Assembly (NCBI GenBank): GCA_913051705.1
Contig: CAJXCW010000013.1
Location: 1-42,187, forward strand
DNA: 42,187 nt
Direction: 5' to 3'
DNA from: an uncultured bacterium
Lineage (GTDB): Bacteria; JAAXHH01
Under the pieces are notes generated by a model that was not told the origin of the DNA, did not search any database, and worked only from the letters and a program-made list of their open reading frames with translations. Below, piece by piece: positions 24,635 to 40,900 of the stretch. The position numbers and the translations under genes are program-made. Position 1 is the first letter of the stretch, and the number at the start of each line of letters is the position of its first letter.

Positions 24635-25090
24635 TCATAGGGCTGACATCGCCGACCAGACAAAGAAGACAGCCGCACAGAAAGTGAGGAATAATAAAAA
24701 GAGCATACCGATGGACAGCCCATGTTTTCGGTAAAGCCATGCAGCAAAATGTTGACTTGTCGAGGACGGACGGGATCGCATTAGATGTCCGTTTGATGGA
24801 GGTCCGTTTGATGGAGGTCCGTTTGATGTATGTACGTTTGATGTATGTACGTTTGATGCGGAAAAGGGGGGCGGCACTCGATTTTTCGGCGCCCAGAATC
24901 GATGCTGACATTCATGACAGAGATACACACGATGTTTAGGCCGAAGCTGCGAAAACCAACGTTCCAAGGCGCTACGTTGGGTACGATGGACCTTATACCC
25001 ATGACATACTGGACAGGCGCGGGACAGTTTTGTTTTTTCGAGCTGAACAGAAGGGGAAGCATGCTTCCCCTTCTGTTTACTTGTACTCAT
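24635..25090 (-). CDS. Zinc-ribbon protein with pentapeptide repeat and C-terminal membrane helix
   Basis: 151 aa from the ATG at 25090; the track ORF runs to 25252 but overlaps the upstream gene. A two-knuckle zinc ribbon (CPVCHGYKVHR ... YLCHECQHRFW) lies at about 25-65. It is followed by a five-unit repeat (SNVHT twice, then SNGPP-type) encoded by a 15-bp tandem array. The C-terminus has one transmembrane helix (GMLFLLFLTFCAAVFFVWSA). No family is recognised; zinc-ribbon plus membrane-anchor proteins of this size are common and uncharacterised. Its start overlaps the end of the 82-aa gene by 14 bp. Confidence 0.65.
   Translation of the reverse strand: MSTSKQKGKHASPSVQLEKTKLSRACPVCHGYKVHRTQRSALERWFSQLRPKHRVYLCHECQHRFWAPKNRVPPPFSASNVHTSNVHTSNGPPSNGPPSNGHLMRSRPSSTSQHFAAWLYRKHGLSIGMLFLLFLTFCAAVFFVWSAMSAL
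24787..24861. repeat. 15-bp minisatellite, five copies
   Basis: Five direct 15-bp units: GTCCGTTTGATGGAG (x2), GTCCGTTTGATGTAT, GTACGTTTGATGTAT, GTACGTTTGATGCGG. Units change stepwise along the array, as expected from slippage and point mutation. The period is a multiple of three, so the host reading frame on the minus strand is kept and becomes a pentapeptide repeat. Confidence 0.95.
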
Positions 25091-25325
25091 CTGAGATGTC
25101 TTTTCGTCGAAGTTTTTTTGATCCGTGTGCGCACCAGAGTTGTCCATCGAGATGATATCCTCCTGCTGTGTCATATACGGGGTGCTCACATTGTACCTTG
25201 ACCATAAGATAGTCCGTGAATACGATTTCTCCTGATATCCACTGAAAAACACGCCCCATAGATGTATCTATCTCTCCATAAAGCAAAACCTGTTCACCAA
25301 CAAAATATCTTTTTTTTTGGGGCAT
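25077..25325 (-). CDS. Hypothetical 82-aa protein
   Basis: 82 aa with a plausible folded composition: FVGEQVLLYGEIDTSMGRVF, then WISGEIVFTDYLMVKVQC, resembling a small beta-barrel. It has no signal peptide. I do not recognise a family. It is the first gene of a two-gene unit: its stop overlaps the start of the zinc-ribbon gene (GATGAGTACAAGTAA). The AT-rich 146 bp upstream, before the NagB/PIG-L stop, probably holds its promoter. That it is real rests on its residue composition and coupling, not homology. Confidence 0.55.
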   Translation of the reverse strand: MPQKKRYFVGEQVLLYGEIDTSMGRVFQWISGEIVFTDYLMVKVQCEHPVYDTAGGYHLDGQLWCAHGSKKLRRKDISDEYK

Positions 25326-25471: not shown

Positions 25472-27316
25472 TCAATTATTGTCAATAACAAACGCCTCCA
25501 TGGCATAGTACTGCGGGAATCCCAGTTGATCCAATCGTTTGGCTGTTGATATGTTTCGATCCTGTACTCGCTCCCAGAATTCCCGGTCATCGTAGGCACC
25601 GGGAAACATCGCTGTATCTTTTTGAGATTCATGGCGAAATATTGCTTGTATCTTTCGTTGAAGATCGTCATAAGACAAAGGGATAACCACATCTGCTTCA
25701 TCCACTTCCCATTCCTGCCACGCCCCCCGATAAAGCCAGACTTCCGGTCTGGTTTTATCATATACGTTCAAGGCCTGATCAATGGCCTCCTTACACATAC
25801 GATGTGTACCGTGCGGATCGGAAAGGTCTCCAGCGACAAACACGATTTCCGGTTGGATCTCGTTCAACAGATTCAGGATAATTTGAATATCCTCATCACC
25901 GATCGGATGTTTTTTTACCTGGCCGGTTTTATAAAATGGCAAATCAAGAAAACGGGTTTTTTCAGATGGAATACCCACAACGGAAGCGCCGGCTATGGCT
26001 TCCGAACGGCGGATATTTGTTTTAATCGTTTGCACTTCCGGAATATCAATCTGGCCTGACTCTTTATGATCGATAAAGGATTTTACCGTCTTTGCGATAT
26101 GAGCAAATTGATCATGGTGACAATCCAGATCACGAAAGGTCAGTTTTATAAAGTCTATTAAGCGGGTTACATCCTCATCGAATACGGCGATGTTCCCGCT
26201 GGTCATATAAGCGACAGTCACATCATTGCCTGTTTCCGAAAGTCTACGCAGCGTCCCGCCCATCGAGATGACATCATCGTCAGGATGCGGAGAAAAACAG
26301 AGGCAACGCGTATTGGTGAATAGATCCTGCTTCTCACGTATTTTAAGACGAACCTCATCAAAGGTTCGCTTGTTCAGGTCGTCCACGGATTTTACGGTAT
26401 CGATCAGGGTATGAAGATTACAGTCACTATAATCCCTCCGGTGTAAATGCAGGACGGGCTTCTGTGTTTGTTCACATAACCAGAGGACGGCTCTTTGTAT
26501 CAGTCTTGGTGTCCATTCTATTGATTGGTCCATCAACCAGGGCGTTGAAACACGCGTGAGTTGACCGGCTGAGGCCGGATCGACATAGATGGTGGCATCC
26601 CTGTGATTTTGCAGATAACTGGCAACTACCTGGGGACTGACCTTTCCTTCTACCGAACGTTGAATGATATGCGCCTTGTGCTCACCGGTGGCCATCAGAA
26701 TAATCCGTTTGGCGTCCAGAATAGTGCCCACACCCATGGTCAGGGCTTCGAGGGGCACATTCTCCTCGCCGAAGAAATCGGACGCCGCATCCTTTCGCGT
26801 CATTTCATCGAGGTGGATCAAGCGGGTACGGGTATCAGAAAATGAGCCCGGTTCGTTAAAGCCGATGTGGCCGGATCGACCGATACCCAGCAATTGAATG
26901 CCGATACCGCCGGCTTCTTGAATCTGTTCTTCATACCACTTTGCATGCTGGGCTACAGAATCGCGTGGAAGGTCCCCCCTCGGGATAAAGATCTGTTCAT
27001 CCGGGATATCGAGATGATCAAATAAATTTTCATGCATATAGCGATGATAACTCTGGTGAGACTGCGGTATCATGGGGTAGTACTCGTCCAGATTAAAGGT
27101 AATCACATTCTGAAAACTGATCCCTTGCTGATGATATTTGATCAACTCTCGATAGACCCCGATGGGGGTCGAACCTGTTGCCAATCCCAACACCGCTTTT
27201 TCCCCTTTTACCGCCTGGGCTTGTATATACTGAATAATTTCCTTCGCAACCGGTTGCGCCAGTGTTTCATGGTCTGAGCAAATGATTACGGAAATATGTT
27301 CGCGTACGTTCTGCAA
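25472..27316 (-). CDS. Glucosamine-6-phosphate deaminase fused to a PIG-L-type deacetylase
   Basis: 614 aa in two domains. Residues about 1-260 are NagB: VLGLATGSTPIGVYRELI, VITFNLDEYYPM, GIGRSGHIGFNEPGS and LEALTMGVGTILDAK, the pathway step converting GlcN-6-P to fructose-6-P and ammonia. Residues about 330-610 are a PIG-L/LmbE zinc deacetylase: CLCFSPHPDDDVISMGG with the AHPDDE-like zinc motif, and GDLSDPHGTHRMC. Such fusions could deacetylate and deaminate GlcNAc derivatives in sequence. I choose the TTG at 27316, not the track ATG at 27367, because a perfect AGGAGG lies 6 nt upstream and the longer form overlaps the PhyH gene. Confidence 0.9.
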   Translation of the reverse strand: MQNVREHISVIICSDHETLAQPVAKEIIQYIQAQAVKGEKAVLGLATGSTPIGVYRELIKYHQQGISFQNVITFNLDEYYPMIPQSHQSYHRYMHENLFDHLDIPDEQIFIPRGDLPRDSVAQHAKWYEEQIQEAGGIGIQLLGIGRSGHIGFNEPGSFSDTRTRLIHLDEMTRKDAASDFFGEENVPLEALTMGVGTILDAKRIILMATGEHKAHIIQRSVEGKVSPQVVASYLQNHRDATIYVDPASAGQLTRVSTPWLMDQSIEWTPRLIQRAVLWLCEQTQKPVLHLHRRDYSDCNLHTLIDTVKSVDDLNKRTFDEVRLKIREKQDLFTNTRCLCFSPHPDDDVISMGGTLRRLSETGNDVTVAYMTSGNIAVFDEDVTRLIDFIKLTFRDLDCHHDQFAHIAKTVKSFIDHKESGQIDIPEVQTIKTNIRRSEAIAGASVVGIPSEKTRFLDLPFYKTGQVKKHPIGDEDIQIILNLLNEIQPEIVFVAGDLSDPHGTHRMCKEAIDQALNVYDKTRPEVWLYRGAWQEWEVDEADVVIPLSYDDLQRKIQAIFRHESQKDTAMFPGAYDDREFWERVQDRNISTAKRLDQLGFPQYYAMEAFVIDNN

Positions 27317-27326
27317 GATGAGCCTC

Positions 27327-28118
27327 CTACCGCCATCTGTGTTCCGGCGGTTCGAAAAGAAAGCCATGGAACAGGGTATGCCGTTCCGGTGATAATCTAT
27401 TATAAAATGCTTTGGGATAGCCCCAATGTTCTTGTGAAGCGATCATCCAGGGATGCTCATAGGCGTAGTACAGCATGATGCGTGGGCCGTGTGAGTGCCT
27501 CCAAGGGCCGTGTGAGTGCCATAAGGCGTTATGAAACAGAATGGCTGTGCCGGGGGGCGCGCAAATTTCGATGGCACCGGGGAATAGATCGGTCTGTATA
27601 AGATCCTCAGGCACAGGCTTATATTGCGCTTTATGGCTGCCCGGTACCACGCACAGATTGCCCTGTCCCGGTTGGGTCATATTGCTCAGGTAGTATCCTA
27701 TCTTCAACTGTAAAAAAGGAATCGGTGTGCCCAGATTCCGATAGCCGCTATCGTGACCATCTATATGCCATCCCATGGATCGACCTTCAGGACCGTATTC
27801 TATAATGGCGTCGGAGGCATGATGGTGAGGATGTTCGTTAAGCAGACCGGTGACATAGGGCCATATCGACGGATAGTCGATCATATCGAGGAACAGAGGA
27901 TCATCATCAAGGATGTAGAATATTCTTGTATTTGCCCTGTCAATACGGGTCATACCGGTATGGGGGACACTTTTTTCCTCAAGATCGCGGCGATGTGCAG
28001 TAACACGCTCCAAGGTTTCTATAAGCCGATTCACAAGGTCTTCTGGCAGAAGGCGATTCAGTACCAGATAACCATTATTATCAAAGAAAAACCGCTCTGC
28101 GTCTGTCGGGTGAAACAT
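27327..28118 (-). CDS. Phytanoyl-CoA dioxygenase (PhyH) family protein
   Basis: 263-aa Fe(II)/2-oxoglutarate-dependent oxygenase fold. It starts FFFDNNGYLVLNRLLPEDLV as usual for the family. The iron motif HxD is in GWHIDGHDSG. The distal His is in the segment LWHSHGPWRHSHGPRI, where a short duplication gives two HSHGP copies; normally one is present. Also seen: LCVVPGSHKAQ. Substrate unknown. It sits 10 bp upstream of the NagB/PIG-L fusion and is probably co-transcribed, so an amino-sugar or related metabolite is possible. Confidence 0.85.
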   Translation of the reverse strand: MFHPTDAERFFFDNNGYLVLNRLLPEDLVNRLIETLERVTAHRRDLEEKSVPHTGMTRIDRANTRIFYILDDDPLFLDMIDYPSIWPYVTGLLNEHPHHHASDAIIEYGPEGRSMGWHIDGHDSGYRNLGTPIPFLQLKIGYYLSNMTQPGQGNLCVVPGSHKAQYKPVPEDLIQTDLFPGAIEICAPPGTAILFHNALWHSHGPWRHSHGPRIMLYYAYEHPWMIASQEHWGYPKAFYNRLSPERHTLFHGFLFEPPEHRWR

Positions 28119-37300: not shown

Positions 37301-37666
37301 CTGGCTGGTATCGTAGTGAACAATGCAATTGTGCTTGTAGATTTTATCAACCAACTCCGGCGAAGCGGAAAAGGGCTTCACGAGGCCATCATGGAAGCGG
37401 GACAGACGCGTTTACGTCCCATTTTGATGACGACATCGACGACGGTACTTGGGCTACTCCCTATGGCCATCGGTTTCGGGGAGGGGGCTGAAATTCGGGC
37501 ACCTATGGCGATTACGGTGATCGGTGGTTTAATCGCCGGTACAGTCGTGACCCTGGTATTGGTACCGCTTATATATTTAACATTGGAGTCAATTATGGCA
37601 AAGGTCTTCAGTATCTTTGGTTCTCCCGCCGGGACACCGGCGTCACAGGAGGTAGTTGAAGCATGA
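34376..37666 (+). CDS. RND efflux permease (HAE1/AcrB-like), first of two
   Basis: 1096 aa, twelve-helix proton-driven exporter. It begins MKIISFAIGRPVTIVMLMVA. TM4 carries SLGGLALGIGMLVDNSIVVL, with the proton-relay region GMLVDNSIVV; the PILMTTSTTVLGLLPMAIGFG region is TM11. Between TM6 and TM7 there is an extra hydrophobic insert of about 90 residues (RLLSFIVLVIFSIIKYLVIG, WIVLRTILTPLSFLFDLILP), which makes it longer than AcrB. Its stop overlaps the next permease start by 4 bp (ATGA), so both are co-translated. Confidence 0.95.
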   Translation: MKIISFAIGRPVTIVMLMVAMVLFGSIAFQRLPINLLPDITYPTLTVRTEFIGAAPNEIENLISEPVEEAVGVVSGVVRVSSISRPERSDVILEFEWGTNMDFAGLDVREKIDLLNLPQAAEKPILLRFDPSLDPILRIALSGDESLTALRIMAEEEIKRELESLEGVAAVKISGGLEEEIHVELNESKLASLSIPITQVANRLQQENVNLTGGTIKDGESEYLVRILNEFQNVSEIGDIIIGQVNNIPIILSDVAQVSKSHKERKISTRINGKESIEIAIYKEAGSNTVSVAKGVKDRLETVEANVSGIATGVDMEIVFDQSTFIEQSVNEVLMTALYGGILALLVLFLFLRNSSTLIIGLSIPISVVTTFFFLYAFDVSLNIMSLGGLALGIGMLVDNSIVVLESIDRYRRRGDISGDEVAYRGASEVGQAVIAATLTTVCVFVPIVFVEGIAGQLFRDLALAVTFSLVVATLVAVTLIPMVSSFMGREQKNPYVDNSAEALPADATTIWGKVRILIRTVWNAVIRLLSFIVLVIFSIIKYLVIGVWIVLRTILTPLSFLFDLILPVIQKSYTPLLGWTLTHRAAVLLFGIVMLAGSLSIVPSLGIELIPEMSQGEFFVNVKLPVGTPLPVTENTLNRMSEITQGYPEVNTVYVLAGTMGQSGGNAGEERENIGQLHVRLNPGIRGEPEEQIMNRLRIDFEGIPGIEAPKFARPALFSFKDPVEVEVSGYNLTRLTEISEDLALEMSAVPGLTDVKASMEGGNPEVQILFDRRKLATLGLNLGTVTQILQNKIQGNIATALTRRDRKIDIRVWAEDEMRLSLDAIRRLIVNPEGTVPIPLSAVAEVQVAMGPSEIRRVNQQRVALVSAGLSGRALGDVTIDIQQILDGISLPLDFIVGIKGQNEEMNVAFQSMQFAILLSIFLVYLVMASQFESLLHPFVIMFTFPFAMIGVILTLLLTGQTISVIVLIGVIMLAGIVVNNAIVLVDFINQLRRSGKGLHEAIMEAGQTRLRPILMTTSTTVLGLLPMAIGFGEGAEIRAPMAITVIGGLIAGTVVTLVLVPLIYLTLESIMAKVFSIFGSPAGTPASQEVVEA

Positions 37667-40600
37667 GCATTGCCGAATTTTCTGTTAATCGTCCGGTGAC
37701 CACGATCATGATTATGGTCAGCGTTGTGGTACTTGGTGTGATTTCGTATACCAAAATGCCGTTGATGTTTTTGCCTGATATGTCGTTTCCGTCGTTGAAC
37801 GTCAGCGTACCGTATCCTTCCTCTTCTCCGGATGAGGTGGAGCGTCTGATTGCCCGGCCGCTGGAAGATGCCTTTGGCACGTTGAGCAATTTAAAGAGTA
37901 TGGAATCCACGTCGAGCGCCAATGACGCGCGGGTTCGCATCGAGTTCGAAGCCGGGACGGATATGGATCTGGCCTCGATGGAAGTCCGGGATCGTATCGA
38001 TCAGACTCGAGGTGAATTACCAAGCGATGTAAATCGGATTCGTATCCGACGCTGGAATCCAAACGATATGCCAATCTACAATTTCAGCGTCGCCTGGGGC
38101 GGTGACCCCGCCGAATTCTACAATATTGTGACCAAAGTGATCCAACCGCGTATTCAGCGGGTGGAAGGTGTGGCGAATGTAGAACTCAGCGGCATGGATG
38201 AGAAGCAGCTTCTGGTCATGGTCGACAACGAAAAGATGAAATCGCACAACCTGGACCTGTTTAATCTGAGTCAGACGCTCACCCAGAATAACATTACACT
38301 GGCAGCCGGCACCGTTACTGAAGGCGGCCGAAGGTATTCGGTGCGTGCTGTGGGCGAATACCGGTCTGCCGATGATATCGCCAATCTGCCGATTCCTGGT
38401 ACGCCGCTGGCTATACGTGATGTGGCTGATGTTCGATTCGGCTATCCGGAAGAGAGGAACTTTCAACGGCTGAACGGTATTGATGCGGTGACGGTTCGTG
38501 TGTATAAATCCTCGACAGCCAATATTGTGGATGTGGCGAAGAGAGCGGGCGAAGTGCTGGAGGAATTAAAAACACAGCCCCAGTTTGCCCAGTTGCAGAC
38601 GCGCATATTCTTCGATCAGTCCGAGGACATTGTCAAGCAGTTGACGAGTCTACGAAACACCGGTCTGTTAGGCGGAGTGATGGCGATCATCATACTGTTC
38701 GTGTTCCTGCGTAATGTGCGCAGCACTCTGATCATCAGTCTGTCGATTCCTATCTCTATTATCTGCACCTTCACCTTCATGTATCTGTTACGTGAGTTTG
38801 CCGGTTCCAGCATTTCCATTAACCTGATCTCGTTGATGGGATTGATGCTGGCCATCGGGATGCTGGTAGACAGCGCGGTTGTGGTGCTGGAAAGTATCTA
38901 CCGCCACCGGCAGGAATCCGATATGCCGGCGAAGAAAGCCGCCATTGTAGGCACTAAAGAAGTAACCATGGCTGTTGTAGCTGCTACCGCCACAACTCTA
39001 TGCGTGTTCCTGCCGTTGATTTTCATGGGCGGCGGCAGTCCTATGATGAGTTTTATGAAGGATTTTGTGATCGCTTTCTGTATCGTGATGGTTGCGGCGG
39101 TATTCATCGCTCTGACGCTGATCCCGCTGCTTGCTTCAAGATTATTCAACAGGCCGTTGGGAGAACCATCCCGGTTCTTCGCCCGTATGGCTAATTTTTA
39201 TGCATACATATTGAGCTGGAACCTGCGGCATCGTCCTGTCACGATAGCCTCGTTTGTCGTTATTCTATACGGTAGTTACTGGCTGTATCAGAATATAGAA
39301 CAGGAATTTCAACCGCAGGCACCGACACGGGATATCAGTATTGCGGCGGTTGTACCAGGCAGCTATGATATAACAGAAGTTAAAGCGCTGTTTACAGATG
39401 TTGAGAAGTTACTCCTTGATAGAAAAGACGAATTTCAAATTGAATCCATTTCCTCCTCCGGCAGTTTACGACGGGCGAATATCCGGATTGTTTTGACCGC
39501 CCCGGAAGAACGCCAGGAGTCCGCCTCAGAGCTTCAGACCAAGATTACCAAAGCACTTCCCGAAATTGCCGGCGTTCAGTGGAAACCCGGGCGCATGCGT
39601 TATCACGGCGGTGGCTCCGGCGGGGTGAATATTGAACTGCGCGGTGACAACATGGCCGTGCTGTCCAACATCGCCGAAGATATCCGTCAACGTATGGAAT
39701 TGATTGACGGCATTAAGGATGTAGACACCAGTCTGGAGCGCGGTGATGAAGAGATCCAGATAAATGTCAATCGGGCCATGGCGCAGACATACGGTATTTC
39801 GCCACAGCAGGCGGCGCGAACCGTTCAGGCGGCGCTGAGCAGCCGAACTCGCGGCCAATACAAAACCGAAGACCGGGAAGTCGATATCCTGCTGCAACTG
39901 GAAGAAGAAGACCGCGCTAACATGAGCCAATTGCAGAATATGACGTTTGAACGCGGCAACGGCGGAGGCGGTATGATCCCGTTCGGCACCCTGGCGGATT
40001 TCTCTCTGCGTAAGGGACCTGAAGCGATCAGACGGCAGGACCGGAAGTCGATTGTCACGGTGGGCGGCAATACAAGCCGGAGTGGGATGCGTGGTATCAG
40101 TGCGGAAGTCACGCAGATGATGGGGAGTATCCAGCTTCCGCCGGGGTATTCGTGGAGCATGGGACGTAGGTTTTTCCAGATGCAGGAATCTCAGAATGAA
40201 TTCCTATTCTCTATCTTGCTTTCCATCGGTCTGATTTACCTGATCATGGCGTCCATCTCCGAGTCGTTTGTTCAGCCGATCACGATTCTGTTATCTATAC
40301 TGTGTGCACTGGTCGGCGCCTTTATCGTGTTCTACCTGACCAACACGACGATGAATACGAACTCGATGCTCGGTGTTATCGTTCTGGCCGGATTGGCCGT
40401 GAACAATGCGATCGTGCTGATCGATCACGTGAATCATTTACGGCGGGAAGGGCTGTCACGAACCGAGGCGTTGATTCTGGGAGGCAAACATCGCCTGCGT
40501 CCGATTCTGATGACCTCGCTGACCACCATTTTCGGCCTGCTACCGATGGTAGCGCCACAGATTTTTCCGGAGTATTTCGGCCCGGTGGAAGATCGCGGTG

Positions 40601-40749
40601 CCAATCAGTGGGGCCCTGTCAGTCTGGCGCTCGTCGGAGGTCTGACCACATCCGGTATCCTGACCCTGCTGCTTCTGCCTACGGTCTACACGATTTTAGA
40701 GGATGTGACCGACTGGTTTAAAGGGCTTACCAGGCGGGTGTTGGCGTAG
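37663..40749 (+). CDS. RND efflux permease (HAE1/AcrB-like), second of two
   Basis: 1028 aa, about standard length. Start SIAEFSVNRPVTTIMIMVSV; TM4 LMGLMLAIGMLVDSAVVVLE; TM11 region RPILMTSLTTIFGLLPMVAP. The Asp of MLVDSAV is present but the following residue is Ser, not the Asn of its partner, so the proton relays differ. Two permeases after one adaptor recall MdtBC, which form heterotrimers. Followed by an ATTG-word element and a strong terminator, closing the operon. Confidence 0.95.
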   Translation: MSIAEFSVNRPVTTIMIMVSVVVLGVISYTKMPLMFLPDMSFPSLNVSVPYPSSSPDEVERLIARPLEDAFGTLSNLKSMESTSSANDARVRIEFEAGTDMDLASMEVRDRIDQTRGELPSDVNRIRIRRWNPNDMPIYNFSVAWGGDPAEFYNIVTKVIQPRIQRVEGVANVELSGMDEKQLLVMVDNEKMKSHNLDLFNLSQTLTQNNITLAAGTVTEGGRRYSVRAVGEYRSADDIANLPIPGTPLAIRDVADVRFGYPEERNFQRLNGIDAVTVRVYKSSTANIVDVAKRAGEVLEELKTQPQFAQLQTRIFFDQSEDIVKQLTSLRNTGLLGGVMAIIILFVFLRNVRSTLIISLSIPISIICTFTFMYLLREFAGSSISINLISLMGLMLAIGMLVDSAVVVLESIYRHRQESDMPAKKAAIVGTKEVTMAVVAATATTLCVFLPLIFMGGGSPMMSFMKDFVIAFCIVMVAAVFIALTLIPLLASRLFNRPLGEPSRFFARMANFYAYILSWNLRHRPVTIASFVVILYGSYWLYQNIEQEFQPQAPTRDISIAAVVPGSYDITEVKALFTDVEKLLLDRKDEFQIESISSSGSLRRANIRIVLTAPEERQESASELQTKITKALPEIAGVQWKPGRMRYHGGGSGGVNIELRGDNMAVLSNIAEDIRQRMELIDGIKDVDTSLERGDEEIQINVNRAMAQTYGISPQQAARTVQAALSSRTRGQYKTEDREVDILLQLEEEDRANMSQLQNMTFERGNGGGGMIPFGTLADFSLRKGPEAIRRQDRKSIVTVGGNTSRSGMRGISAEVTQMMGSIQLPPGYSWSMGRRFFQMQESQNEFLFSILLSIGLIYLIMASISESFVQPITILLSILCALVGAFIVFYLTNTTMNTNSMLGVIVLAGLAVNNAIVLIDHVNHLRREGLSRTEALILGGKHRLRPILMTSLTTIFGLLPMVAPQIFPEYFGPVEDRGANQWGPVSLALVGGLTTSGILTLLLLPTVYTILEDVTDWFKGLTRRVLA

Positions 40750-40872: not shown

Positions 40873-40900
40873 TAATACAACTAATTAATTAGTTGTATTA
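40873..40900. promoter_or_regulatory. Perfect 28-bp palindrome, probable BlaI-type operator
   Basis: The half site TAATACAACTAATT is followed directly by its exact reverse complement. It holds TACA/TGTA as in BlaI/MecI/CopY operators, and lies 85 bp before the apparent blaI start. A further TTAGTTTGGTTG half-like site lies at 40909-40920. A repressor dimer binding here would autoregulate blaI-blaR1. The T-rich flank could also hold the promoter. Confidence 0.75.

Follow-up and report, generated by a model that had tools for sequence, protein, structure and literature searches.

Does a short tandem repeat inside the gene of a small membrane protein act as a genetic switch, or is it ordinary filling of a spacer? 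The question arose from a stretch of 42,187 nucleotides of an uncultured bacterium (hereafter the window), in which an earlier note had described five near-identical 15-bp units within a zinc-ribbon gene and had proposed phase or length variation. TRF detected a period-15 array at 24787-24858 (4.8 copies, 94% matches), which was the top-scoring tandem array of the whole window. Its score was 102, compared with at most 68 for the best array in 100 order-2 Markov shuffles of the window; the five units were thus borne out as tandem units of 3n length beyond the chance level. The array and the gene that contains it are listed below.

24787..24861, minus strand: in-frame minisatellite of five 15-bp units, A A B B B' (TRF, shuffles, genome uniqueness)

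25090..24635, minus strand: gene of a 151-aa membrane zinc-ribbon protein (orthologs, hydropathy, AF2)

In coding orientation (minus strand), the units read TCAAACGTACATACA (twice), TCAAACGGACCTCCA (twice) and TCAAACGGACATCTA, and they encode SNVHT SNVHT SNGPP SNGPP SNGHL in frame with the ORF at 25090..24635. When the peptide-coded pattern and, with two mismatches allowed, the DNA core were searched across the 5.45-Mb genome, no second copy was found except for one two-mismatch match to the core, and viral contigs contained no copy of the 15-bp repeat. Unit-to-unit identity was approximately 90% at shift 15. The earlier note had read the units as differing stepwise. The types do differ by a few bases (A-B, 3; B-B' at the edge, 2; A-B', 3), but the copies within each type are identical, giving two identical pairs and a diverged edge copy. 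Duplication of two diverged units, next to an edge copy of greater age, fits this order better than a stepwise gradient does. The note had also pointed out that all three minus-strand frames are open across the array. We observed this as well (one plus frame is closed), but it has no evidential value, because any stop-free unit of 3n length keeps the other minus frames open automatically. All four variable sites within the unit are non-synonymous (P = 0.29 under random change, of which 27% would be synonymous), as expected without constraint, with the caveat that the SN dipeptide, kept in 5/5 units, is compatible with some constraint.

The product of the gene consists of a CPVC...CHEC zinc ribbon (aa 26-66) with RFW directly after the knuckles, a linker (aa 67-117), the motif WLYRKHGL and a membrane helix at about aa 125-146, and its hydropathy reaches a maximum of 2.54 at aa 126. 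The AF2 model likewise predicted ribbon strands and a long C-terminal helix. The array is therefore flanked, as had been claimed, by the Cys4 ribbon on one side and by the hydrophobic helix at the C terminus on the other. The gene may alternatively start at an in-frame ATG farther upstream, near 25147. Two further genes lie upstream.

25077..25325, minus strand: 82-aa ORF, conserved partner gene (homologs, AF2)

25472..27367, minus strand: fusion gene of glucosamine-6-phosphate isomerase and PIG-L deacetylase, a synteny landmark shared with the sister genus (Pfam PF01182, PF02585)

Protein search of related genomes identified orthologs in a sister genus of the same family (G001, 39% identity) and in two other families of the same order (G015, 46%; G014, 37%). 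The order of the isomerase/PIG-L fusion, a small ORF and the zinc-ribbon gene is common to the window and G001, in which the zinc-ribbon ORF is the same as that in contig VGJU01000128.1 (deposited as a Candidatus Zixiibacteriota MAG). At the level of sequence comparison, the syntenic ortholog of the sister genus and the orthologs in the two other families confirm that the gene is real, and the array is in frame between its conserved flanks, the zinc ribbon on the 5' side and WLYRKH and the membrane helix on the 3' side. WLYRKH was present in the three closest orthologs (G001, G014 and G015). Both Cys pairs, RFW and the flanking Arg and Glu positions were invariant across the orthologs and paralogs in the alignment (A1), from which we infer that the protein is under selection.

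The protein has the features by which we define a membrane zinc-ribbon family of this phylum, namely CPxC, CxxCxxRFW and a C-terminal membrane helix. The family profile matched in 4 of the 16 genomes of the phylum, and there was no match in 12 sampled species of the family's third genus. Full-length matches were confined to the 16-genome phylum, with one weaker core match outside, and a search of a genome-contig collection with the zinc-ribbon protein gave none. No model of Pfam or NCBIfam scored above its cut-off. FmdB-type and IS1595-type zinc ribbons (TIGR02605, PF09723 and PF12760) share with the protein a pair of CxxC knuckles spaced by about 30 residues, and relatives gave weak sub-threshold matches to them. 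In contrast, the window protein itself falls under all curated cut-offs and carries the C-terminal membrane helix and the RFW/WLYRKH signature; it is thus not a member of FmdB / Zn_ribbon_8 (PF09723, 13.4 bits against a cut-off of 34.4; TIGR02605, 11.7 against 31.3). Matches of the profile to PDB sequences were mostly C2H2 fingers aligned through short Cys/His segments and were uninformative, and a fold search with the AF2 model of the zinc-ribbon protein gave no match at E <= 0.001. In one paralog of the sister genus (G001 contig C29, L030), CGYGM replaces the second CxxC knuckle, with the loss of one zinc ligand.

In both G001 and G014, a homolog of the 82-aa ORF immediately precedes the zinc-ribbon gene (47% and 39% identity, respectively). 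Its product is predicted to be a small beta-barrel (AF2 mean pLDDT 85.5); it matched no family, and a fold search with the model gave no match at E <= 0.001 among solved structures. The zinc-ribbon family is poorly known, uncharacterised and lineage-restricted, and has a conserved partner gene.

We compared the linker from RFW to WLYRKH among members of the family. Its length was 51 aa both in the window and in a paralog of the same genome (contig C31), 45 in G001, 42 in G014 and 41 in G015. Thus, half of the linker consists of the 25-residue array, and the total length is inside the family range of 41-51 aa. The array was not found in any ortholog or paralog in the alignment, including those of G001 (syntenic), G014 and G015, which suggests that it most likely arose in the lineage of the window. 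Its absence from the syntenic ortholog, together with the identical adjacent copies, supports the recent slippage-type origin that had been proposed. In the AF2 model, which was run with six sequences, pLDDT was approximately 37-52 over aa 71-110, whereas the ribbon had values of 70-83 and the membrane helix reached 96. The linker bearing the array is thus predicted to be disordered, and the array is probably a lineage-specific filling of this spacer.

These results argue for a lineage-specific in-frame 15-bp minisatellite in a disordered, probably unconstrained spacer of a membrane-anchored zinc-ribbon protein, which we regard as the probable explanation. The array would have expanded by replication slippage or unequal recombination, and the linker would serve as a flexible tether joining the membrane helix and the zinc ribbon. 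Selection would then maintain the reading frame and the rough length of the linker, but not the pentapeptide sequence. We therefore take the array to be, most likely, an in-frame coding minisatellite of the ordinary kind, located in a spacer, rather than a genetic switch. It leaves general understanding unchanged; it is a clean example in which a lineage-specific in-frame repeat fills half of a disordered linker while the total length stays within the range of the family.

The genome is rich in tandem repeats. In the 842 kb of the 5.45-Mb genome from which the repeat and palindrome background was estimated, TRF detected 75 arrays with a score of at least 50, compared with 2 in shuffled sequence. 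Most of these arrays lie outside ORFs, and in 35 of them the unit is 7 or 8 bp long. In-frame coding arrays occur in the sister genus too. Derivation of the 15-bp unit from the 7/8-bp repeats was rejected, because identity at shifts 7 and 8 was 0.28 and the unit has no 7/8-bp substructure; the origin of the 15-bp array may be separate. The 7/8-bp arrays have related units (AATCACC, AAATCACC, AATCAGTC, ACCTGCCC and AATTATG) and were found in the window and in L125-L164 of the same genome (G000), mostly outside ORFs. Their abundance is lineage-specific: G000 has 111 arrays in 842 kb, whereas G001 has 3 in 400 kb and G002/G003 have none in 244 kb.

Other bacteria also have in-frame coding repeats, among them the serine-aspartate repeats in surface proteins of staphylococci (PMC3324548) and in-frame variants of pe/ppe genes (PMC12817950). 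The array shares with such coding minisatellites and VNTRs short 3n units arranged head to tail in a coding region, so that a change in unit number would alter protein length without a frameshift. It differs in having few copies and in being carried by a small zinc-ribbon membrane protein that is uncharacterised, not by a surface adhesin; it was read here in one genome of the genus.

Could the copy number nevertheless switch or tune the gene? The phase variation proposed in the earlier note failed on frame arithmetic. The unit is 15 bp (5 x 3), stop-free in the coding frame and located in the middle of the gene, and whole-unit slippage therefore cannot shift the frame; on/off phase variation of the zinc-ribbon gene was rejected on this basis. 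Contingency loci with simple sequence repeats resemble the array in that a tandem repeat lies within a gene, but the unit here cannot shift the frame and the copies are few and imperfect. Further, the array does not belong to the phase-variable contingency loci, in which a change in unit number alters the frame, promoter spacing or expression. Instead, the tether would become 5 residues longer with each unit gained and 5 shorter with each unit lost, and any effect of this would be graded and small.

A contingency locus of another kind, in which frequent gain and loss of units tunes the reach of the ribbon from the membrane and generates heritable diversity in the population, was also considered. 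The identical adjacent units suggest recent duplication, one unit (5 aa) corresponds to approximately 10% of the linker length, and linkers of 41-51 aa are tolerated in the family. In M. tuberculosis, tandem repeats in promoters are documented to change in copy number within isogenic populations (PMC12817950). However, the array has only five units with about 90% identity at shift 15, its 15-bp steps rule out on/off switching and the current linker length is already inside the family range. Few imperfect units are expected to be far less mutable than perfect short repeats. We therefore consider such a locus unlikely. A graded effect of copy number on the tether is possible but unsupported, and it is quite improbable that populations carry varying numbers of units that tune the reach of a membrane zinc ribbon working with the co-encoded small beta-barrel.

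The repeated pentapeptide might alternatively be a selected multivalent motif that binds a partner, since every unit retains Ser-Asn and the array occupies half of the linker. The array is absent from every ortholog found, however, the region is predicted to be disordered, and each difference between units is a non-synonymous, chemically drastic change (V/G, H/P, T/P and L/P), making this very improbable. A cluster of protein-binding sites at the DNA level, iteron-like and by chance inside a gene, would account for the even spacing of the five direct repeats and for their invariant CGTTTGATG core, but it is hardly conceivable given that the genome has no second copy of the core pair except for one two-mismatch match and that the array lies deep in coding sequence with conserved coding flanks on either side. 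Although the assembly is fragmented (405 contigs), an assembly or sequencing artefact can be practically discounted, because the 75-bp array is distant from contig ends and its ordered in-frame unit differences between conserved flanks are unlike assembler collapse or duplication.

What is unusual at this locus lies outside the minisatellite, in the uncharacterised zinc-ribbon family with its partner gene, which the locus brings out, and in a palindrome; we regard these as leads and not as results.

25046..25077, no strand assigned: perfect 32-bp palindrome AACAGAAGGGGAAGCATGCTTCCCCTTCTGTT, approximately codons 5-15 of the zinc-ribbon gene (shuffles, genome search, fold)

The palindrome begins at the stop codon of the 82-aa ORF, which overlaps the ATG of the zinc-ribbon gene by 14 bases. 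It is unique in the genome and the longest in the 842 kb sampled (the next is 28 bp), whereas the longest palindrome in 50 shuffles was 20 bp. The mRNA would form a 14-bp hairpin (z = -3.47 for the fold of the region), and Rfam gave no match at the zinc-ribbon gene or the palindrome. The hairpin and the 14-base overlap suggest that translation of the two genes may be coupled or attenuated. A second perfect palindrome in the window (28 bp, AT-rich, 40873-40900) follows the end of an efflux-type gene at 37663-40749.

Another zinc-ribbon paralog of G000 (contig C40, L033, about 1498-1770) reads MPCPT-UGA-GSAHVYRS..., in which UGA takes precisely the position of the second Cys of CPxC; beyond it, the frame is open through the membrane helix. 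A short hairpin lies 3' of the UGA, and Rfam gave no match for this region. In G000, selA (506 bits), selB (316 bits) and tRNA-Sec (69.6 bits) were each matched above the cut-off. The UGA may be a selenocysteine codon or a nonsense mutation.
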